Assembly (NCBI RefSeq): GCF_000004075.3
Contig: NC_026655.2
Location: 24,413,489-24,477,488, forward strand
DNA: 64,000 nucleotides
Source: Cucumis sativus
Lineage: Eukaryota; Streptophyta; Magnoliopsida; Cucurbitales; Cucurbitaceae
Reading direction: 5' to 3'
How positions within the stretch are numbered: the stretch's first letter is position 1; each line of letters begins with the position of its first letter. Positions 15,449 to 46,915 of the stretch are shown here, piece after piece. The position numbers and the translations under genes are program-made. Under the pieces are notes generated by a model that saw only the letters and a list, made by a program, of their open reading frames with translations, was not told the origin of the DNA and did not search any database.

Positions 15449-16696
<1,248 letters not shown>

Positions 16697-19600
16697 ATTT
16701 ACCAATTTAGACATTGTATTCAAGGAACAAGTGCGTCTATACGTCGCTGGAATCTCTCACTGTTTTTGTTACTAGTGTTGCCTGTGTGATGCTCTCTATT
16801 TTTATTTGAACTAATGCAGTTTAGCAATTTTGTTTTCTTCGACAGACCTAGATTGCTGGTATTTTTTGTGTCATATTTGAGTAAGATCAACAATTTTTCA
16901 CTTTAAATTACCCATGCTTTTCACATGTCTCATGAAATCTAGGTGGATGAATTATATTTATTTGACAAAAAGTTTGAGTTGGTGATTTTATAATGATTCA
17001 CTTCTGCCAAACTCAGGTTTTCAATGTCAAAATTATCCCAAGATCTAGGTTAAAATATACCATTTTGGTTAGTATTATTTTTGGTTTTCAATGTCTAAAT
17101 TGGGTCACTGTAGTTGTCAATCAATGATAAACTAGTCTCTACCCCTAGTTCACTATGTTTACAAACAAGATCTTTCACAAGGTACATGATTATCTTTTCA
17201 TATAAGGTAGTCTTTTGTATCTAAATGTTTTCAACTTTTTATTTGTCTAAAGCCAAGGTAAACCAAGTTATTGTGAGATACAAACAACTTTAAGCACCAA
17301 ATGGATGAAATGCCTTTGATTCTACCCATTATTTAGATTTTCTTTTTATAATGCTTCAAACGGCTAATGTGTTGCATTAAAAAACTTAGAGAAGGTGAGG
17401 ATGATGGAAAAGAAAAGTTGTTGAATTTCTAAGTGGTGGTTGATTTTTTAGTTAATCAATGATCACTCTTTTCAAATAGGAGAGTTTTTCTTAGATATTT
17501 TGCGAGTAGCCTAAGTTACTCTTTGAAAACCACTTTTAACAAACATCCATTTGGCATTCTTTAATTTATTGAATATTTGTTGGGTAAAGTATACCCAATT
17601 TATAATAGCTTACTATGGTATACAGTTGAGTTGGAGGTAAATTATGGACTAACTCGAGGTCTATTGACAAGAACTGAACAATACAATTCAATATTGTTGC
17701 ATTGGGTTGCTTTTCACTAAAATATGAAATTTTGGAATGAACAAAATGTTGGGTTTACCTAAATATGTTAAACCCAATTTTTAAAAAATTTATAATTAAA
17801 CAATAATAAAATTTGGGTTGATCGTGGTACAAATCATATAACTCAACTCAAAATATATTTTAAAATTCTTTTGAAACTCATCCCTTATGATAGCTGCATA
17901 GTTCAAATTGGTCGAATGATCAAGTTTTTTTAATACTTCTAAAAGCTACTTAGGTGTTAGCAATTTATTGAGGTAGTGTGTGGTAAATTTTCAATACTAA
18001 AGTAAGTACCATAAATTTACTTTTGCTCAATTTCTTTGTTTTGTTATATCAGTTTCTAGAGTCCTAATTACAAAAGCAAAAATGAAAAACATCCAAGAAC
18101 TTATTTAACAAAGTTTATGAACCTATTTTATGTAGAAAATTAATCGTTTAAAAAATCAAGATACTTTTTAAAGTTGAAAAATTTACTATTCTTTTTCATA
18201 TTTGCGTGATATACTTCTAACATAATAACTTTTCAAAAGTTGCATCATATACTTCTAACATAATAACACAAATTTGTATATCAAATACAAATTTTTCAAC
18301 TTACAAATATATTAACTTAATACGTAAACATATTAACTACAAATTTCATGAGAATAGACAACAAAACAAAAAGAATGAGATTATGAAACATGAAAACAGT
18401 GGAAAAGATACTTGAATTGAGACCTCCATAAACAAATAAAGTTTTTGTATAAGAAATCAAACCCAAAACGCTACAAACTTTAAATTACATCACATTACAG
18501 ACTCATTTCATGACGAACTTTTCGAGGTAAGTTAAAGATATTTTTGAGTTAATTGCAAGAAAGTCTCTCATTTAATAACCCCACGTGTACAAAGAGAGGA
18601 TGAGCAAACCCTAGAGAGAGAGAGAGAGATGGGTCTTTGTCTTTGGTAATAATAATGATTGATGAAAGAAAAGGAAGAGACAATAAAGAAAATAATGTGT
18701 TTTGTTTTTAGTTTTTGAAGAAGGCCTCTATATTTGTGCATTGCGTGTGAAAAATCTCTCACTTTTTATTCTTTAATATATATATCTCAGAATCACTTCT
18801 TTTTTACTTGCAATATAAGCTAAACCCCAACTCCCAATTTTCTTTCATCATCAATTCTCCCCTTTTCAAACTTCATCCCCTCCTCCACTTGACTTCAATT
18901 TCCAATGCCCTAAACACTTTATTCCACATATACCCTAAACCCTAAACCCCTCCCTTCTTCAAATAAGTCCTACAACTATTGGTGAGAACAATAATATCCC
19001 CCCACTTTTTAAGCCAAAAAACTTGTACTGATTTGACTAATTACATCACATATGAATCATTTATATATCTTTTTCATGGTCTTTCCTCTACGAAAAAAAC
19101 CGAGGTAGGGTGGCCATTCAAATCCTAAAAACCTAACCGTCCAAAAATGCAGTTAAAGATATTTTGGATATCAAACTAAGTACTTAGGTTTGGTTCGGAT
19201 TTCGAGGCTTCGCTCTTATCTTTGTGGTTGATGTACTAAACTTACAAGTTTAAGTGTATCTAGATCAGATAAGATTGTAATTATCTTTGTTTTACAAGTT
19301 GATGTTTTGATCTCTCGTTTTCAAAATTGTTGAGGTTAGAATTAAACAAAGAAGTAGGGTCACAAACGTAGATATGTTTAGACTGTGTTTTAATCATGTT
19401 TTACTTATAACGATGGATTTGTCACATTTACTTTCGCAACGTTGTGGTGGTTGACGGTTCTAGTTTTGTATATATATAGTTGCAAACTTAGCTTGCTCAT
19501 TTATAATCAGTGTTTATCGTATTTTTGTAAGTTGCTCTAAACAACATAATATGACAAAAGACGAATAACAACGTTTTGCTGCACTGAACGTAAACAATAA

Positions 19601-21750
19601 AAAAAGATACAACCTTTTGGAGTTTGGTCGTTTGTCCAAGTTAATCTTTCATCATGTGTGACAATGAATAGTTAAATTAGTTGAAAAATCATTATATTCA
19701 CAACTAATAGTTGCAAGTTGTATTAGATTTAGGAGCTTAATTCTATCGACTCATCATCAAAGATAGGGGGAGCTCACATACTCGATGGCAATACTCCGTA
19801 TGTGCAATATAAACACTTTACATTACAGTAAATCAATCCCTTTTCACCTAGACATAAAAGCGGTTCAGACGAGGTGTGGTTACACCAACTTATTTTATCT
19901 CTCTCTAGCCTTCACTCTTACTTATTGTATTGTGCTTACTTTGCGGCCATCACTGTTGCCCGTAACATTATTTCTATATTCATTCACACCTACTTTTGAT
20001 CGATCAGTATCATTATTGTTATCGTTACAATTATCACTAGGTCATATAATTTGTCGTTTTTTACCGTTTACATACAGTACACAATTAAATCCAAAATCAA
20101 GCACACACTTGGTCTACACTTTTAAATTTATTACATTTAAGAGTGCATGGATAAACACACAATATAATATTGAAAGAAAAGTTATGGGGGTGAAATTAAA
20201 TAGGGATATGGAAATGAAAGAATCCCCCACATTTGAAGGCAAAGGGTTAAAAAGGATGACTTAGGGTTGAAGCAAGCAATGTAAGAGAGAAAGAGAGAGT
20301 GAAATTATAGAGATGAGTGTGTGGAAGAAAAAGAGAAATCACCTGAGGTTCAGAAACCAAATATGAATCATTTTTCATTCGTTTACGCCATCTTCTTTCC
20401 CTTCTGACATAATCTTCTATTTATGTCTCTCTTTCTCTTTTATTACATCATTTCTCTCTTTTCTCTTTTCTCTTTTCTTTCCCATTTCTGTTTTAAATCA
20501 ATGTTTCATTTTTGGACAATTTTTCTCATCAATTTCCATTTAATAATGATGCATTTATCTAATCATATCCCATTCTGATTTCATTATTACCTTCTTACCA
20601 AACAATAATCTCACTTCCACCTCTCTATCTCTTATTCAAATTACAAATTTCTCGTTAACATAAAGGTAGTGAACGTTTTCCTCTATCCAAGATTTGCAAT
20701 CGATAAAATTTGGATTGATCAATTTTAATCTATAATAAACTTTAAGTAAATCCTAAATATAACCACCTCCGTTAGATTGAAATTAATTAAAAAATAACAA
20801 AATTAATTATATCTTAGTTTTTAGAAATTTTAATTCGAGATTTCTTGATTTTCAAATATATATGTACAAGTCTAATTTAGGTAAGCTTTTGTTAACATCA
20901 AAAATGAATTATTGTCTTATTAAATATTAAATCTAGTGTGTTATACCGAGGGATCTAATAAACAAATTTTCTTAAAATTATATATATATACATATATATA
21001 TTTTACTTTAAAAGTAAAAAAAATATTAATCCAAAAACTTCTTATGGTCTCTTAATTAAATTTTAAATTTTATTATTCTATTTTAGATTTTTAGACTTTG
21101 AAATATCTTTTTGGCTTTGAGTTTCAACGTTTTAGTGGACACTGAATTAGATTATAATTAATCATAATCTTGCTTTTGGTTAATCTTTCAACGAACATAA
21201 CATATAACTAATTTTTAACTCTAATTTAAAGTAGAGATAAAATTAGAAATTTAGTTATTTATAGAAAGTCAAAATAAAAGGTGTTTCCATTCGAAACAAT
21301 ACAAAAATTCACATCATTATTCATAATTTCATAATTCATTCTCCAACCATATCATAACATCATGGCTCATTAAATATCCATAAGTACAACTTGAATCCGT
21401 ACCCACAAATGAACCAAACGTTCGTTCGCATTAAATTCCCAATTTATGATTAATAGATTTACATGAATTTGAATGCAATAACAAAGGGATTAGTATACAT
21501 AAACGCTTCCAGCATATTGCTATTACAAACAAAGTAGAAAGCTCCCTCTTGATCTCATGGTCTCCAGACTCAAATTTATCCCTTTTTTTCCCTGCATTGG
21601 AATTAGTAACTGATTAGAAAAGAAGAAGATTAAAGAAAACATGATTTTACTAATAGCCTCCTAATTAATCCTTCTTAGGTAAACAAGAAACAGTGAGAGG
21701 AGAAGAAGAAGAAGAAGGTGAGAAGAATTATGGAAATTGGAGAAGAGAGT
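16697..21750. other. Gene-poor AT-rich spacer left of MIR164
   Basis: The first few hundred bases are the eL22 3' region. I see no supported protein-coding gene in the remaining 5 kb. Notable simple sequence: a GA run at 18613-18629 and telomere-like (CCCTAAA) repeats at 18931-18950. A 159-residue open frame at 19785-20264 has no domain and an odd composition, so I do not call it a gene. The MIR164 primary transcript (minus strand) may extend into the right end. Confidence 0.45.
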
Positions 21751-21753
21751 GGA

Positions 21754-21877
21754 AGAGTGAGAGAGGCATGTTGGAGAAAGGGAGCACGTGCAGTGGAGGG
21801 TGTGTGTATCATGTGTTTGTGTATATATGGCATGTGCCATGCACGTGCCCTGCTTCTCCAGCAGGATTCTCTCACTC
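21754..21877 (-). ncRNA. MIR164: MIR164 microRNA precursor hairpin
   Basis: On the minus strand, bases 21840-21860 read as the 21-nt miR164 sequence (core GAAGCAGGGCACGTG), identical to miR164a as I remember it. The opposite arm, 21770-21790, gives a star strand (core CACGTGCTCCCTTTCTCC). Mature and star pair over 17 of 19 positions, including two G-U pairs, with 2-nt 3' overhangs at both ends as expected from Dicer-like processing. The stem continues below the duplex: agagtgagaga at 21754-21764 is complementary to tctctcactct at 21867-21877. The mature strand is on the 5' arm, as in known MIR164 genes. miR164 targets NAC/CUC transcription factor mRNAs, controlling organ boundaries, lateral roots and ageing. 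Open frames through the hairpin are incidental. Confidence 0.95.
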
Positions 21878-21948
21878 TGTGTTGTTGGCCGCCATTGCTG
21901 AAGCTTGTTCTTCTTCTTCTTCACGAGGATGAAGATGAAGATGATGAA

Positions 21949-21960
21949 GCATTTAAATAG
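21949..21960 (-). promoter_or_regulatory. Candidate TATA box for pri-miR164
   Basis: The minus strand reads CTATTTAAATGC here, about 70-90 bases upstream of the hairpin base. That would place a transcription start near 21915-21925, just before the stem. The spacing is right for a compact plant MIR gene, but the element is only TATA-like. A GA/CT-rich tract (21970-21990) lies further upstream. Confidence 0.35.
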
Positions 21961-22589
21961 GAATTCTAGTGAGAGAGAGAGAGGGAGATGAAATTCAAAA
22001 AAGAAAAAAGGAAAAAGATTGAGTCTGAAAATGGATATTCTTTAAAGAATGGATTCAGAAAGGGGATAAGCAATCATAATGGCTTCTTGTGACAACCAAA
22101 ATTTTTCTTTTACTGATCCACCAAAATCTATGTCTTTATTATTCCTTATTAATGCACCCCATTTGTTTTCTCTCATTTTCTTTTCTTTCTCAAGAAAACA
22201 AAATAACAATAATAAAATAACCTATTTTATTTATACGTATCGTGTCATTTTCGTCAAATTAAACTTTTTTATAACGATCTAGTTCACGTAGTTCTAAATT
22301 TATAATAAATTAGTTTTTAACGTGAAAATTCGAATAATTTAATTGTATTAACACGTCTCTTTTAGAATAATTTATTTTCACTAATCACATGCATCATGTA
22401 TCTTAGAAAAATTAGAAAGTAATACACCCTATTGATAGATATTAACTTTTCATACATTCTTCTCATTCGAATTCAAATTGTCCTAAATTTGTGATTAAAC
22501 ATTCGATTCAAATTTAGATTCACGTACATTAATTTACTAAAGAATAAAAAATGCTTCATTTGTAAAAATGTGAAAAAGAAAAAGGAAAA

Positions 22590-23300: not shown

Positions 23301-23459
23301 ACACAAATATCCGTTTATACTCTAAACTTTGGTGCATGATAAAATATTAAAAAAGATAGGATTTAATTGTGTAAAGCTTTATTATAAACTTTAAACTTTG
23401 TTGAATCTTCAATTTAGACGAGTTACGTTATGTGAGATCCGTACCTAAATTAGATGGGG

Positions 23460-24815
23460 CAAAATTTTGACTAGGTGTTGTGTTGTGAAAGAAAAGTTGA
23501 AGTTGCGATAAAAAGTTGACATTTTGATTTAAGTTCGTGATGAGGTAAGGTTAGATGATAATATTTTGGATGTTTAAGTATCGTTCGACGTTTGAAGTTC
23601 GTCGTGAGAAGGAGTTAGGTGAGGAAGATGTCTAATCTTGATTTGACAGGGGTGTATGTGTAAGGTTAAGAGCTAAACATGTTTAAAATACACATGAAGC
23701 TTATACGTGTATCACTAAGAGCAAGAATTGCCGATATATTAAGAGATTACGGATGACTAATCTAGTTTGGGATGAGTATAAATAGAGGAAGAAGTCGGAT
23801 TGATAAGGAGTGTTACACTAGAAATCTGAAAGGAAAAGGTTAATTAGTGTAAGCTAACTTTAGGCGAAAAGAAGGAAGTTGAAGCTAAACGTTAAGCGTT
23901 AATGAAGCCAAGTGGTTGTGAGTGATTTCTTTTTAGAAGAGTTTGTTTGTATTAAAAGGTTTTCTTTAAAGTTCTTACTTAATTGAAATTATGTTTTGCA
24001 TATGAATGTTTTAAAGATATTTTCGAAAGGAAGTTTATACTATGCTTTATATGAATGCAAAGTGAAATTGTGTTCAAAACATTATTCTTTCTATCAATAA
24101 GCTAACTGCTATGTGTATATAAGAAATAAAGACAATCATGTAGAAAATGACTGCATAGTGGAGAGAAGTTGGCCAATGCATAAAATATGTGTATTGTGTT
24201 TAGCGACCTGAACAACAAGAAATGAATCATGATATTTTCGGATGTTGTTGATGAAAAGAACATCACAATAGTCTAAACGCGAGATGATGAGTTTTGGTAT
24301 AGAGAATGATTCATGTTCTTGGTGAAAGGCGTGTTTGAGACTAATGTGTGATATTACGATATGATGATGATTATGAAATGTATTCCAAAAAGGTTTCGTA
24401 AAAACATCCTCACTAACTCTTTCGACTTATGTTTTAAATTTTTCACTCTCCAGATGAGCAAACGTTTAAGGCTAACGTAAGGAAAAGGTGTGACGCTGCT
24501 AGACGAGAAAAGTTTGTCATGCGTTTAATTTTAAGTTTTAGTGTTATTTTTCTTGTTTCATGTAAAGTGTGTTGTAGTACACTGGTCAAAAGGTTAATAA
24601 AAGAATGTTTTATCTTATATTGTTGTGTTAAGTGGTTTTTCGTAGCTTTAGTATGAATTTCAGATTAAATGTGAAGTTATCAAGCGATTAAGTAAAGCTC
24701 AAGGACTTAAGTGAGCATTCTGACGTTTTGCTTTAGAGCGCCAAGATTGCTTAAAGTTACGTCGCATACTGCATGGCAAGTTAGGACGTGTGCGAGGCGG
24801 AGCGTGACATGTTTG
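23460..24815 (+). mobile_element. Degraded LTR-like remnant (possibly a solo LTR)
   Basis: The stretch has LTR-type organisation. A tataaatagagg box lies near 23777, followed by a long non-coding leader-like region. A phrase near 24407-24460 (cctcactaactctttcgac, then a pyrimidine run and ctccag) resembles the R/U5 part of Ty3/gypsy-type plant LTRs as I remember it. A poly(A)-signal-like aataaaag follows near 24596. I see no gag-pol around it and no partner LTR in the window, so it would be a solo or truncated copy, old and worn. Family and ends are uncertain. Confidence 0.35.
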
Positions 24816-27544
24816 AATTTAGTCAAATAACAACTAAATTGAGTTAAATTTGACAAATGTTTCAACTTTTGTATTAATTTTATTTTATTTTGTATTTCAG
24901 AGAGTTACTAAGTTGCTAGCCTACAAAATAACAACTTGTTTCTTCATTTGTAGCCTAATCCATTCTAAAATTGAAGAGTTTTTTCCATTCTTTCTTTCTT
25001 CCTTTTGTTCTTGTGTTAACTTGAGAGCAAGTATTCAAGAGTTACTTATACTATATCTAAGTAGTTCAAGGCTACAATTTTATCGAAGTTAGTCGTTGTA
25101 TTCTATAGGGACGACGATTGTTGTAGTCTGCTTGCAATCCTATGTAGAGTGAATAATTGTCTTTAGGACAACACTTATCAAAAACATGTCTCGACTATGG
25201 TTTGAGTATACAAAGGTTTTGAGGTTATTTCAAGTATTTGATTGTTTTCATACCTAAGCTTTATTATATCATTTGGCTTAAATATACTTGTTTCGAATTA
25301 AGTTATAATTAGTTTGCTAGTGTATTTAGTTCATATTATCCCCCACAATCAACAATCAAACTGAATACATGGCGTATGCACGTGGTATTCAACACCTAGC
25401 ATGTCGACATATCACTTGTGGTGGCATGGTCCAAATTGATGAAATGGACAATGACATGGCGTCAAATGAGACGTGGTGTTTTTCATTAATAACAAATCAT
25501 TTTTTTACTCTAATGCAAACTATGCCAACCCCTAGATCATAGTATTACGTTTTTGTTCCCTACTTTGTCATCAAATCATAATCTTTCGTCGTATTTTCAT
25601 AGACGTGTGGGTAAGGACATGGAGAGCATGAAAAAACAGTTCAAGATTCATAATTTTTGTTATTTAATAAGTAATCAATTCCAAAGTTCATAAAAAACCT
25701 ATTCAACAATTAATTTAGTACATCACAATTTCATTATTTCTCTTGTCAAATATTTTTTCTCAATACATGCTATATAAGGTTATGATTCATGTGTTGGTCT
25801 TCTCTCTAACTATACAACTAAGTCTTTACTATATTTATAACCTTCATGGTTTGACCTAATGGTAAAAAAAGAGTCTCAATAACTAACTAAAAGGTTATGA
25901 GTTCAATCCATAAAATTAATTTCTTACAAGTTTTCGACACCCAAATGTTGTAGAGTCTTAAGTTTCTTTTAGCTTCATATCATATAGGCATGACTATATA
26001 ATTGAAGAAGAATAATGTATAGAGTACTGTTTATTCCATTACTAAGCAAGAACACAAGAAAAAAAGAATGTGAAGACTTATCAAATGTAAGCCCTAAGAC
26101 CGTGCAAAAGCACACGCATTCTTGGAGATGTTTTCACATGGATATGAGGCTTTGGCCAAAGCTTCAACTCATTGTGGGTAGCTAGCCGAAGCTTAGCATG
26201 TTGGCTAGTTATAAGTTGCGAGAACTTGAGCCAATAAAGCTAATTGAAACTCTTTTGAGGAACTTTTTGGAATAGAGAAAGTTAAGGTGTTAGGATTTGA
26301 GACAGCTCCTTGAAGATGTTTAATTTGCATCCACCTAATTGTAAGAAGCATGTTGTTTTAACCTTCATTGTTGAGTAATATTGTGTTTTGATTGCTTGGA
26401 GACAAACAAAAGCTTAAGCTTAGGGGTGTGGTATGTGTCATATTTGCATGCTTTTTGTCATTAAATTGAATCATGCGAACATTAGGAAAAAGGTGCATCA
26501 TTAAAAGGCTCCAAAACGTCGTAAGTTAATTAAATGGTAGTTGCATTGGGTAACATTTTTGGATAACCAATTAAAAATATAACGATATTTAAAACATATT
26601 GCAAATATAACAAAATGGTTTGGTTAATACAACCACATTGCATTGTTCTTACTTTTTATCTCATTTGTTAATTTGAATTGATGATCACTCATGACAATTT
26701 GTTGAAACTCATGTTATCTTGTGAATACTTTATGTATAACATGACTTACTCACTGTCGATTTCAACAATGATATTCGCTACTCACTCTCGATACTATGTA
26801 CTAGATCTCATCATCACTTCCTATACCCTCTCATTACTTTGATTCAAAGCTTGGTTCTCTACTCACTACTTGCTTGACTTTTACCTTTTTCTGCTTCTAT
26901 AAAATTTTGTTCACAACAAAACCAAAAATTCTAAACCCTAAAACTATATCTAACAAGCATGAAACACGAATAGAAACAAAAAAGAAACAGTGTTACTTCT
27001 CTCTCGAGAGTCAAGAGTAAAATTTGTCTAAGAAAGATGGGGAATCCACTCTATCTCAATTCAAGCACGGCGGCAAAGTATAAGAAAGATCAAGAATGAG
27101 AAAAATTACAAGTTAATGTTTCTACCGTAAAAAAAACCTAAAATAAAAGGGACTGTGAAAACGAGAGTAAGTAGTGAAAGAAATATTCAAGTTACATCGA
27201 TCTCAAGCTATGTTTTCATAGTCTATATTGCTCTTTCTTTATACATTTTTCTTACATATGCTATCAACAACATAAAGATCAAAATATATTCATATTACTC
27301 TCAATAATCTTTTTTACCATATAATAATATATATATATAGAAATATTATTTTCTACTTCAACACTTTGGTTCTTTCTTCAACACTCTTCTTTTTGTGATT
27401 TCTCCAGTCTACCATTTAACACACCACAAATCGCGTCCTGATTTCGTTCTTCTCCCTCTCCATCACTGCCATTTTCCCTCGCCGGCTCCCCTCCATCTTC
27501 CGTTTTCCGGTCTTTTAACTTCAGATCATACGGCGGCAGAATTT
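24816..27544. other. Spacer upstream of EMC6
   Basis: No supported gene. The section 24840-25350 may also be retroelement-derived (LTR-like wording), but I cannot show it. A SINE fragment lies at 25842-25968. The last 200 bases should hold the EMC6 promoter and leader (a ta-rich run near 27330, then a CT-rich leader). Confidence 0.4.
25842..25968 (+). mobile_element. Diverged Au-type SINE fragment
   Basis: Aligns by eye with the better copy at 30774-30985. Shared phrases are ggtttgacctaatggtaaaa (A-box region), agtctcaataactaactaa, ggttatgagttcaatcca (B-box region) and gacacccaaatgttgtag. The 3' third is missing or unrecognisable. It is more diverged than the EMC6 intron copy, so probably older. 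Confidence 0.65.
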
Positions 27545-30500
27545 ATGGCGGGATACTCCTCCACTGCTTCTGACAAGAAATCGTCTGATTTGGCCGACGA
27601 TATACCGATCTTCAATGCTGAAAATTTGCAAAACAACTTGAAGATCATATATTACAGGTTTTTTCGATGCTTCAATCAACTTTACTTTCTTGTTGATACC
27701 GATTGTCTTTTATTCGAATCCTATCAGTTTTCTTAGAATTGGAATCCTTCCGTGATAGACCTAGACCTAGACCTTGTCTTTTCTATTTCTATCTTCTTAA
27801 TTGACAGCTTATGTAAGTATGGATTTAATTGGTTGACCTAAAATTTTACTGGGTTCTGAACAATCTCGGGATTGTTTGCATTCAAACTGAGTAGCTACTT
27901 AATAATGGACTTGATAAGATTTTTATTGATTATTATGATTTTGTTCTTGAGTTTTGTGAATTTAGATTATGAACGTCTACTATCTTTTGCAGCCGGACGT
28001 TTTTGTCTATAATTGGTGGAGTAATTGCTGGAGTTTTGGGATTCACTGGCCTGACTGGATTTATATTTTATTTCCTAGTCATGGCAATTACTTCAGTTGC
28101 ACTTGCAGCTAAGGCTGGATTTTCCTTTCATTCATATTTTGAAAGCTGTAACCAGATTCTATTCGATGGCTTTCTCAGTGGACTTATGGTATGCGTCCTC
28201 TGCCCTTATTTTTTAGATTGGACAAAGTTGCGAGACACAACAGAGCACGTGAAATAGGATAATTGAATAATTTTATGTACTTGAATGAAACTGACATCTT
28301 TTGATGTTCTATTTTATTTATAAGTGATGAATTTTTAGATCTAATTCTTCTAGGGTGTCTAAGTTACGAATCTTTCTTGTTAATTGCATACATTTGTTCT
28401 GTCTTTAGAAGAAATTAGTTACCAAAGGAGAAGACAAGTCACAGTACTATCTTCAATGTTATTGTTCTGGAGGCTAGTCGAGAAAAAGATAGTAAAATTC
28501 CATTTCTTTTAGAAGGTAGTATGACGCAAGAAGAGGAAGGCCCAATTCTAAGTTCAATGTTCTTTTTAACCCCCTTGGGATCCATTTTAGGGTGATTCTT
28601 ATCCTCCTGGCTAGGTTTCGTACATTGTTGATTTTTGGGCAATTTTCACATTCGCTATTAAGGAAAATATAGGCTAATGCAATTTGAATGAGGTTTCACT
28701 GGGCATAAGAATTAATGAAGATTTTGAAGAAAATTGTAGTTGAAGGTTATTTGAAAACCTTGTCTAAATAAGATATCTTGGACCCTTGGGTATCAGGAAA
28801 TCCATTTCTAAATGGATAAGAAAATGGGATAACAATTTGAGTTTGTTTGATTATACTAGTAAGGAAAGGAAATAAAAAAAGATGAGCAAGTTGATTTTAG
28901 GCAATGTTGAGGGTTTTCTTTTTTTCTTCCTCTATCACTTGCAACAGGATAGAGGTCTCTAGAGCCTTGGGGTTGGATTGGTTCCAATTCCTACAGAAAC
29001 TTGGATAGACTGAAAAGCTGGGTTAGATAAATTCCAGTTTTCTTACGACCCTATGTGGTTTTTTTCAAGATTAAGAAAAATCAAAGAAAGGAAGGAGAAT
29101 TGAAGAAGAAAAAGAGTCAAAGTAGAAACAAAATCATTTTTATTTCTATATCTTGCTTCAAATATTTTTTTCCTCAAGATTATTTGAGTTAATTTCATTC
29201 TAACCTTATGTATTTTTCATTTATTATTTTATTAACTGAGCTTCGCTTCAATCTGGCAATGCCTATTGTTGCCTCTTGCCTTGAGGCCATTAAAAAGTTT
29301 GTGGCTTCAGAGTGCTCCTTGGACTTTGAAAACACTGAATGGGGTGTATTAGTGCTACTCATGTTTGCTTAATGCGTAGTAAGTTTGGAGCTGTGTACTT
29401 CCAGAATTCAGAGGGTAAACCCATATGTAGTTTCAACACTAGCCTAGTCATTGGAAATATTTGTAGGGTGCTAGTTAAGAGAGGTGATGGTCTACCATTT
29501 TTTGAAGGTCCAATGTCATTCTTTCCAAGAAAAATTAAATGAGATTCTGCGAAGGTAAAGCTGTAGGGTTTTTCTTCTGTATGGAGAAGTTAGATTAGTC
29601 TTTAGTGGGCAGTTTGCATCCTTCATTTTTTCCCCATGTTTGTGTGTGAACATGGCGGTAATATTTAGGCTTCAATGGATTTGAGAGCTCAAAGTTTCGA
29701 AGGGAATTGGAGACTTTGGGGCAATGGTGCCTTCAAAAGGCTAATTTCTTTGTCTTATTATGAGAGACCAAGAGTTAAGATTAGAGCAACTAGAGACTTC
29801 TTAGGCTGAGTGTCCCTCTTTTTATGGATGTTGTTTGAAGTTTATTTCTCTACATGGATATTGATTGCAATCAAATTGAAGATTTTTAGTATAGGTGGGG
29901 TGATAAAATCTTCACTTGAGTAGTTTTCAATTTTCTGCTGCTGTTGATAAGAGTTTCTTCTTCTACTTGGAAGAAAAATGCAAAAGGGGTAACCTGTTCA
30001 ATATTGCCAAAGCTTTTGAGATTATGTCAGCCCCTAGGCCGTAAGATCAGCTATAAAAAGGTAGTGTTTGGTCGACTGGAGTCCTTTGTTAGGTTTGTTT
30101 GGCTCTTTTTGAGGCCTGGATTTTTTACTGGAAAAACGAGGGTTGACCCTTGTTATCTCAAGTTTAAAACGTTAGATAAGGTTTTGAGAAAAATTTCGTC
30201 TTTGGTGACACCTTTCTGTTGCATCTTGTGTTGGAGGCCAGATGAAGGGTTGACCTTGAGGCAAGCTGTCACAAATCTTTTAGTGCTTTGGTCGAGGAAT
30301 TCCTCTTCTATCCGCCGTTTTGGGGTAAGAGAGTTTATATATATATGTATGTGTATATATATATGGGAAGCAGGGATGTGTGTTTTGTTTTTGGGAGGTG
30401 GGATTGAGTCTTTTTATGGGGATTTTTTTTATTGCTTTGAATTTTTTTATTTTCTCAATTAAAGTTGGTATATTGTCTAAAAAGCTACAAATGTAGTCAT

Positions 30501-44550: not shown

Positions 44551-45880
44551 TTGAAGGCTGTGTGTGGAGCTGATGAAAATGCATAGTAATGGAGGTTGAA
44601 GAACTGGTAATGGAGTGAGACAAGTGGTTGAATCAGATCGGCCATTTCTTCACCAAACTAAGTAGAAGATAGTTCATGATTGTGGGGAGGTGGGACTCAA
44701 TGGAATGTCAGCAAATCTGCAAATTAAAAATTAGGTCTTTTCTAATGAATGATTGAAGTCAAACACTTTTGTTTTTCCCATCCTCCTAATAATTTATTCT
44801 TCTTTCACCATAATAATTAAAATACTACCCGAATCATTTTGGTTCAAATTGAATTGAATTTTAGTATAAACAAAATTGAACCAATCAAAATTTAAGAAAA
44901 ACTAAAACTATTCTAATCGAATTGTTTTAAGTAAAGAATGAGCCACATCGTTTGATTGAGTTTGGTGTACCCTTAGTCGAAACAACCCAACTATGAGTAA
45001 GATGGGATTGGTTTGGCTAAAAAAGCAGTTTCAATCTTACTCATTTACACCTCTTAACGAGAGAGTTCATTTTTGTTGGTTGTATTTGATTTGATGTCCT
45101 ATGGTTTGTGCACCCAAGCTTTTCATCACAAATTAGTCTCTATCACCGAGCCATGTAAGCTCCATCTCTATGAACACTTGTAAATAATTTCTCCACCCGT
45201 TCAAGCTACTGTCAGTTGGGGTTGGTTTCTCACCTAGTAAACTGATCGAGTTGATTTTGTACGGGCCTCGACTCGACCAATGGTTACCCTAATTTGATGT
45301 TAACTAATCTAAAAAAGATTCAACAAGTATTTTTTTTTAGTTTTACTCAAATATAAAACCAAATATCTAATTTTATACCAAAAATTAAAGCAAAACCATT
45401 AAGTTAATTTTTGTTCATATGATAGGTATCACTTTTCTACCGCCAAACTCTATGCTTGAATTTCCCGCCTTAAAAATGGGTTGCATTTCCAGTGTCCATA
45501 ACTTTTTGTATATTTTCGTCTCCTAATCCTAAATTGCATTTCCGTAATTTGATTTCAATTCTTGATTTTGTGCAAAATTTTCGTTTCAAAATTGATTCGA
45601 TGTGTTAGGCAACGATGGCGGAGGCTGAACTATTTGGTATTCGTTTTATGACGGAGTGTTTCTTTAGCCTCCACTTTGTTCATTAAGTTCATTGGTGATT
45701 GCATGGTTAGAGGTTTCTTTCTTCTTAACTTCTTTGTATGCAACAATGATTTGTCATTTGATATTTTGAACTCAAACTCTTACCGAACTTGGTTTGTTTT
45801 ACTTTCTAACTTTGTATATAAACTAAGATTTAGCGTTTATTTTCTCTTTATCTCTGTTTTTCTTCCTGAATTATGAAATC
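44551..45880. other. Spacer between the secreted-protein gene and the copia fragment
   Basis: Promoter region of the secreted-protein gene on the left; AT-rich sequence with no recognisable gene on the right. The open frame at 45676-45876 is hydrophobic and unremarkable. Confidence 0.45.
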
Positions 45881-45889
45881 TTGGAATTG

Positions 45890-46915
45890 GAATACATAAT
45901 TGTTAGAAATATGGCAGCAAGATTTGAAGTGAAGAGATTCGATGGAAAGGTAGATTTTGTGCTATGGAAAATGAGGATGAAAGCACTTATATTTCTACGA
46001 CAAAGAGGTCTTCTCGAGACAACGACGACGACAACGAATAATCGAGTTCAAGAAATGGAAATTATCGCCTACAGCACTACCATATTCCATTTGGAAGACA
46101 ATGTGCTTCTCCAAGTTGGCGATGTTGAAACAACTGACGACTTGTGGAAAAGATTGGAACAACTATTCTCAAGAAAATCGTTTGGAGATAGGTTGTGTCT
46201 AATGGAAAGACTCTTCAGATACAAAATGGATTCCTTGAAGAATCTTGAAGATAACTTGGAAGAATTTACGAAGATTGTGTGGGACCTTTCGAGGATAGGA
46301 GGAGAGATGTCGGATGAAGATCAAGCAGTGATTCTTCTCAGCTCACTTCCAAGTATGTATAATGAAGTGAAAGATAATTTAATACATGGGGTTAGAGATT
46401 CATGAACTGTTGGGATGGTTATGGCTGCATTGAGAGCAAAGGATAAGAAAATGAATTGAGAAAAAACAAGAAGGTATTGAAGAGGTAGGAAGTGTCACCA
46501 TTGCCATAAAGAAGGGCATATTCGACGAAACTGTTCTGCGTTGCGTAAGAGCAAAGAATGGATAATAAGTTTGGGTTGCACGATGCACATGACACCGAAC
46601 AAAAATTATTTGATTGATTTCGTCGAAACGGAGGAAACAAAAGTGGCAGGATTCATTGATCAGGTTGAAGTTAAGGGTACAGGGTTAGTGAAGATCAGAG
46701 CTCATGATGGGCAAATAAGAACTCTATCAAATGTTAAGTATGTTACAAATTTGACAAGAAATGTTATTTCTTTGGGAGTATTGGATGACAAGGGGTTGCT
46801 TTTTCATGGGAGATAAAGGCACGTTGAGGATATATAAAGATTCTTCACTCAAATTGAAGGGCAAACTTAGTAATGGCCTCTATATATTAGAAGGATCAGC
46901 AATTACAAATTGATT
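45890..46915 (+). mobile_element. Broken Ty1/copia retrotransposon fragment
   Basis: Contains a gag region of the UBN2 type (about 45910-46405, phrases KRFDGKVDFVLWK and LFRYKMDSLKNLEDN), a zinc-knuckle-like stretch near 46490-46535 and the GAG-pre-integrase part of pol (about 46560-46815, SLGCTMHMTPNKNYL). Integrase, reverse transcriptase and RNase H are absent, and I see no LTRs. It is a truncated, inactive fossil with several breaks. Age is not measurable from this piece, but the reading frames are still recognisable, so it is not extremely old. Confidence 0.88.

Follow-up and report, generated by a model that had tools for sequence, protein, structure and literature searches.

A cucumber MIR164 gene in a coding desert: published products, predicted NAC targets and a counterpart on chromosome 7

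The plant microRNA gene MIR164 is well known as a brake on NAC growth regulators. In Arabidopsis, MIR164C (AT5G27807) and MIR164A (AT2G47585) presumably encode the same mature type as the cucumber gene studied here, and we take their precursors to differ from it in the loop and in the star. In cucumber itself, dominant csa-miR164 reads from shoot tips are tabulated in PMC6238408, miR164 in cucumber tissues is likewise reported in PMC5379521 and PMC3316546, and the name miR164f is in use in PMC7113371. In this report we focused on one 64-kb stretch of the genome (hereafter the window), in which an initial annotation, made from the letters alone, had read a MIR164 gene on the minus strand at 21754..21877. 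We are nearly certain that this C1 locus is one of the four MIR164 hairpins found in cucumber—expressed, processed and NAC-regulating—with a duplicate on C7; the coding desert around it probably came about by gene loss and a repeat. The features on which this reading is built are collected in the table.

Features of the window and MIR164-related places in the assembly (window coordinates unless preceded by C1 to C7)
Feature	Position	Strand	Evidence
RPL22e, left desert edge	15449..16693	plus	two exons seen, splice sites approximate; Pfam PF01776, 2e-21 and 1.1e-18
MIR164 fold-back (pre-miRNA and lower stem)	21754..21878	minus	RNA fold -52.4 kcal/mol, z -7.5
miR164 star (3p), CACGTGCTCCCTTTCTCCAAC	21770..21790	minus	predicted from fold; single exact copy in assembly
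Mature miR164 (5p), TGGAGAAGCAGGGCACGTGCA	21840..21860	minus	exact; unique in window
Lower stem, 5' side	21861..21878	minus	18 nt with 14 pairs in RNA fold
TATA-like box TATTTAA, putative core promoter	21953..21959	minus	pattern match, 99 nt upstream of mature 5' end
Dispersed repeat, probably transposable-element remnant	23431..25352	.	further matches at 68-83% identity
EMC6, right desert edge	27545..28257	plus	Pfam PF07019, 6.6e-15 on 27973-28257; start by eye, end is open frame end
MIR164 hairpin C1	window locus, within C1:24413489-24477488		exact mature
MIR164 hairpin C7	C7:18557947		exact mature
MIR164 hairpin C3	C3:28664974		exact mature
MIR164 hairpin C4	C4:16015860		mature with last-base change
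NAC predicted miR164 sites	C1:1550089, C1:3644846, C2:16348808, C3:15407401, C3:33675783, C4:23669463, C5:30298922		

The hairpin, its relatives and its products in print

The structural reading of the locus stands throughout. The exact miR164-type 21-mer claimed for the minus strand is present at 21840-21860 with 0 mismatches; TGGAGAAGCAGGGCACGTGCA is matched nowhere else in the 64 kb even when 3 mismatches are allowed, and 100 shuffles gave none. In the fold of minus 21740-21890 (-52.4 kcal/mol, z -7.5), which none of 200 shuffles equalled, the two arms pair, and the span that results agrees to 1 nt with the one first annotated. The arms are separated by 49 nt, the only unpaired miRNA nucleotides of the miRNA/star duplex are 9 and 10, and two pairs are G-U. 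The star that the annotation had described, with 2-nt overhangs, is borne out by the fold, which predicts it at 21 nt with 2-nt 3' overhangs, and the extended lower stem is likewise there, its 18 nt and 14 pairs lying near the rule, given in PMC7577975, that a lower stem of 15-17 bp guides base-to-loop processing; a stem of this kind guides the first DCL1 cut. A short frame, MAANNTE (21872-21895), was considered as a microRNA-encoded peptide and dropped because the corresponding 120 nt at C7 contain no ATG.

To place the gene in its family, the mature sequence was searched at up to 2 mismatches—a threshold at which more diverged MIR164 genes would be missed—across the 226.6-Mb assembly. Four of the 8 places found fold as MIR164, and these fall into two star types, one common to C1 and C7 and the other to C3 and C4. 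The star of the present locus, CACGTGCTCCCTTTCTCCAAC, has one exact place in a whole-assembly search, and allowing up to 2 mismatches adds only the C7 hairpin, with one difference. Some 0.5 kb away from the C7 hairpin, Rfam detects a tRNA gene (RF00005, 75.2 bits). A plantacyanin gene of the assembly agrees with the cucumber basic protein 2cbp at 61 of 65 aligned residues, which supports cucumber as the species, with small differences. One point of conflict with the literature concerns position 14: PMC5379521 states that miR164a of line 9930 has a G there and that the variant is present in 9930 libraries, but none of the 8 places that the 2-mismatch search gave in the present assembly carries this variant, all four hairpins having C14, and the letters of the variant gave no match in a literature text search. 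The discrepancy could stem from an older assembly, from a gap or from use of another accession.

Reads already in print speak directly to the activity of the locus. In cucumber shoot tips, Table 1 of PMC6238408 gives csa-miR164 a dominant 5p, TGGAGAAGCAGGGCACGTGCA, with a count of 253,447 and a dominant 3p, CACGTGCTCCCTTTCTCCAAC, with a count of 1,649, in a table that pools the family (five members there versus four hairpins here). Both printed sequences equal, letter for letter, the mature and the star predicted here. The mature is common to three loci (C1, C7 and C3), so the 5p reads are not locus-specific and therefore prove nothing for C1. That identity at three loci also speaks for a silent or decayed copy, one that is untranscribed, with its sisters supplying the mature reads. 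However, such a reading is nearly refuted, and in our judgment extremely unlikely, since the star is exact at C1 only and is the dominant 3p of the table in PMC6238408; moreover, the duplication is old (the RPL22e exon stretches of C1 and C7 are 78-79% identical in DNA), yet both arms are intact. Because the locus-unique star is the dominant printed 3p, we conclude that the C1 MIR164 locus is expressed and precisely processed: the star reads by which the initial annotation proposed to check positions 21770-21790 are found in PMC6238408, as an identical 21-mer unique to this locus.

The same 21-mer has a second name. When the first 18 star letters were searched in literature text, the matches were PMC6238408 and PMC9846352 only, and novel_mir_4 in Table 3 of the latter is identical to CACGTGCTCCCTTTCTCCAAC; judged by that identity, novel_mir_4 is the miR164 star of the C1 locus. 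Published star reads can now be assigned to one genomic locus, and a "novel" miRNA name in print is corrected. PMC9846352 reports novel_mir_4 as down under hypoxia and up after exogenous treatment (calcium, from its title). That most shoot-tip miR164 comes from C1, rather than from its paralogs, and that this hypoxia/calcium response is regulation of the C1 gene itself is a tentative combination, against which we would lean rather than for it; if it were true, NAC control would be tied to flooding through one testable promoter.

The route from locus to product can be sketched from these elements. RNA polymerase II most likely transcribes the minus strand from just below the TATA-like box; a TATA-like site precedes the mature 5' end by 86-138 nt in all four hairpins, by a pattern match made with no chance control. 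DCL1, the enzyme expected from the family, would then cut about 18 nt above the stem base and release the miR164/miR164* duplex, a cut position borne out by the 3p reads printed in PMC6238408, which equal the predicted star. The 5p strand would guide cleavage of NAC-family mRNAs, with the sites predicted from sequence here and the cleavage reported for the family in PMC5379521.

Predicted NAC targets and the antisense strand

The genome holds 19 sites complementary to miR164 at up to 3 mismatches, versus 3 for the reversed control pattern. Five of the 19 are MIR164 precursor arms. Seven have a NAM domain at most 2.7 kb upstream of them in the same orientation, among the NAM matches listed (160 in all, with sites judged by sequence, position and strand), and for the remaining seven a NAM domain is not nearby among those matches. 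The reports on targets in cucumber point two ways: degradome data in PMC5379521 show five NAM-family targets of miR164, whereas the degradome table of PMC3316546 assigns miR164 an R3H target in place of a NAC one, which stands against the NAC reading. The NAC site at C5:30298922-30298942 has a C opposite miRNA position 14 and would therefore form a better duplex with the G14 variant of PMC5379521; the gene that carries it may be CsNAM55 of the same paper. Separately, four places share a single 21-mer that differs from a perfect miR164 target at 3 positions, and two of these places are separated by 220 bp. None has a NAM domain nearby among the matches listed; the 21-mer may belong to a repeat with a miR164-like site.

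A point that could have told against the minus strand is that Rfam, at its gathering threshold, gives 0 matches in the window. The MIR164 model RF00647 scores 50.9 bits on the plus strand and 36.3 on the minus at C1, both below its cut-off of 64. Two other hairpins score 69.7 and 35.3 bits on the antisense strand versus 47.8 and no match, respectively, on the miRNA strand, and the C4 hairpin gives no match at E <=0.01. The antisense strand thus scores higher at 3 of the 3 matching hairpins (4 searched), and the final part of the printed RF00647 consensus is the reverse complement of miR164. Because of this consensus end and the same bias at every matching hairpin, we explain the miss here by a wrong-strand model: RF00647 appears, from its letters, to model the antisense strand, i.e., it likely contains a strand error. 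Such an error would make annotation pipelines miss MIR164 genes or reverse them.

The plus strand nevertheless deserves weighing in its own right. For the same 21740-21890 interval it folds more strongly than the minus strand (-71 kcal/mol, z -6.7, versus -52.4 kcal/mol), which speaks against the minus-strand call, and its 5' arm resembles miR164 at 15 of 19 positions; the CACGTG core is its own reverse complement. An antisense hairpin with a miR164-like 5p arm might be made from a plus strand that is transcribed as well, or instead. We regard this as highly unlikely, since all seven NAC sites, among the NAM matches listed, are oriented for the minus-strand product. The reading of the locus as a genuine MIR164 gene of the minus strand is supported by its sequence, its fold, a locus-unique star in print, its paralogs and its targets, and it confirms that a plant microRNA gene can be located from raw sequence with an accuracy of one base.

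The coding desert and the C7 locus

The gene stands in a coding desert that extends from the end of RPL22e at 16693 to the start of EMC6 at about 27545. Four stop-to-stop frames of at least 90 aa lie wholly within it (at 19767, 21661, 22962 and 24136), and Pfam finds no domain in these four at its cut-off. The one across the hairpin, 21661-22041, is judged spurious because its only match, Ephrin_CRD, is below threshold (17.9 bits versus a cut-off of 27). Both parts of the earlier description therefore hold: the protein-gene desert at 16.7-27.5 kb is real in coding terms, for frames of at least 90 aa, and the frame over the hairpin is spurious. Farther along the window, a Copia-type gag fragment (Pfam PF14223) is present at 45827-46405.

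The flanks of the desert connect C1 with C7. RPL22e, whose second exon stretch is 16550-16693 on the plus strand, flanks both the C1 and the C7 MIR164 in the same orientation relative to MIR164, and the two proteins are 88% identical over 68 residues and 97% over 35 residues. Of the 29 RPL22e matches in the genome, 4 correspond to the exons of the two genes at C1 and C7—the only ones among 27 places with two adjoining matches. In-frame TGA codons interrupt 24 of the 25 matches elsewhere, many of which are on small contigs and many of which have equal scores; these 25 copies are treated as an amplified pseudogene-like family and left out as intact genes. At C7, the interval from RPL22e to MIR164 contains a PHR2-like photolyase and UTP14. 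All 5 UTP14 matches are at the C7 locus, with none elsewhere in the genome. The photolyase likewise lacks a second close copy, its 3 further partial matches being 37-53% identical. On the right-hand side, where EMC6 is divergent from MIR164, no synteny between C1 and C7 was found at E <=1e-4 in the 60 kb compared.

By locus number, the same genes are neighbours in Arabidopsis: RPL22C is AT5G27770 and MIR164C is AT5G27807, and PHR2 is At2g47590 and MIR164a AT2G47585. For a possible place in the MIR164 a/c clade, with RPL22 and PHR2 as putative ancestral neighbours, the observations are RPL22e beside C1 and C7 and a PHR2-like gene beside C7, the Arabidopsis side consisting of locus numbers only. 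The simplest account is that one ancestral block with RPL22e and MIR164 was duplicated and that PHR2 and UTP14 were lost on C1, a call of loss versus gain that is based on one paralog and the Arabidopsis locus numbers. The C1 locus is a whole-genome or segmental duplicate of the C7 MIR164 locus, with RPL22e in the block; judging from the paralog, C1 would have lost genes between RPL22e and MIR164 and gained a repeat on the opposite side of the hairpin.

That repeat (23431-25352, about 1.9 kb) has at least 46 further matches, 46 of 46 inside this stretch, from 40 of 1082 candidates scored. It seemingly consists of two abutting units joined near 24809, and it lies about 1.6 to 3.5 kb upstream of MIR164, i.e., on the promoter side, where the nearest 1.5 kb is outside the repeat. 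In the other half of the desert, 16760-21740, the sequence is almost single-copy and has 10 further matches, all of them short.

The initial annotation had gone further and suggested that the desert may hold regulatory DNA, and a conserved domain of this kind could set the dose of miR164 from afar. The 1.5 kb of repeat-free sequence beside the hairpin on the promoter side would allow for it, and similar gaps are seen at C3 (about 12.8 kb, its right-hand bounding frame having no Pfam match) and C4 (15 kb), judged from the 16 longest open frames in each 60-kb region. However, footprinting of the 2-kb flanks between paralogs, against 60 shuffles permuting 2-mers, found no similarity upstream of C1 above that of shuffles: the best score was equalled by 23 (C7), 46 (C3) and 29 (C4) of the 60, and for the 2 kb downstream versus C7 by 45 of 60. 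The upstream comparison of C3 with C4 gave 15 of 60 and that of C7 with C4 gave 3 of 60, a weak signal in which the C1 locus is not involved. When the whole desert was compared with a 60-kb C7 region at E <=0.01, the hairpin arms were the only matches, and outside the hairpin and the repeat the desert has just two short stray ones, 22177-22222 to C3 (E 0.006) and 18126-18173 to C4 (E 5e-4), which are taken as chance or simple sequence. Furthermore, part of the desert is the dispersed repeat, the other half is explained by gene loss on C1, and a 2.1-kb upstream fragment of Arabidopsis MIR164a is said in PMC2809068, citing another report, to rescue miR164 null lines. If that fragment suffices, a long desert is therefore not required. 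A regulatory role beyond the ordinary is not supported by these paralog comparisons, the repeat and the C7 evidence of gene loss, and we consider the regulatory domain improbable. Because the C7 duplicate keeps the PHR2-like photolyase and UTP14 in this very interval, the desert is best read as the product of gene loss after duplication, together with a dispersed repeat of 1.9 kb in its upstream half.

Comparison with known systems

How does this gene compare with those already described? From the csa-miR164 of cucumber it shows no difference in kind, the dominant 5p and 3p in the table of PMC6238408 being the same; the passages of PMC6238408, PMC5379521 and PMC3316546 on csa-miR164 give the family, without this locus or its paralogs. 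Cucurbita pepo MIR164A/B/C, as described in PMC10967242, are likewise cucurbit MIR164 genes regulating CUC-type NAC genes, and that report counts six MIR164 loci versus the four hairpins found in cucumber, a comparison by count and not by sequence. With Arabidopsis MIR164C and MIR164A the likeness extends to the neighbourhood: RPL22C and PHR2 are neighbours there by locus number, as around C1 and C7, and C1 differs in keeping only RPL22e. The C1 MIR164 locus is an ordinary member of a known family, and its products are already in print.
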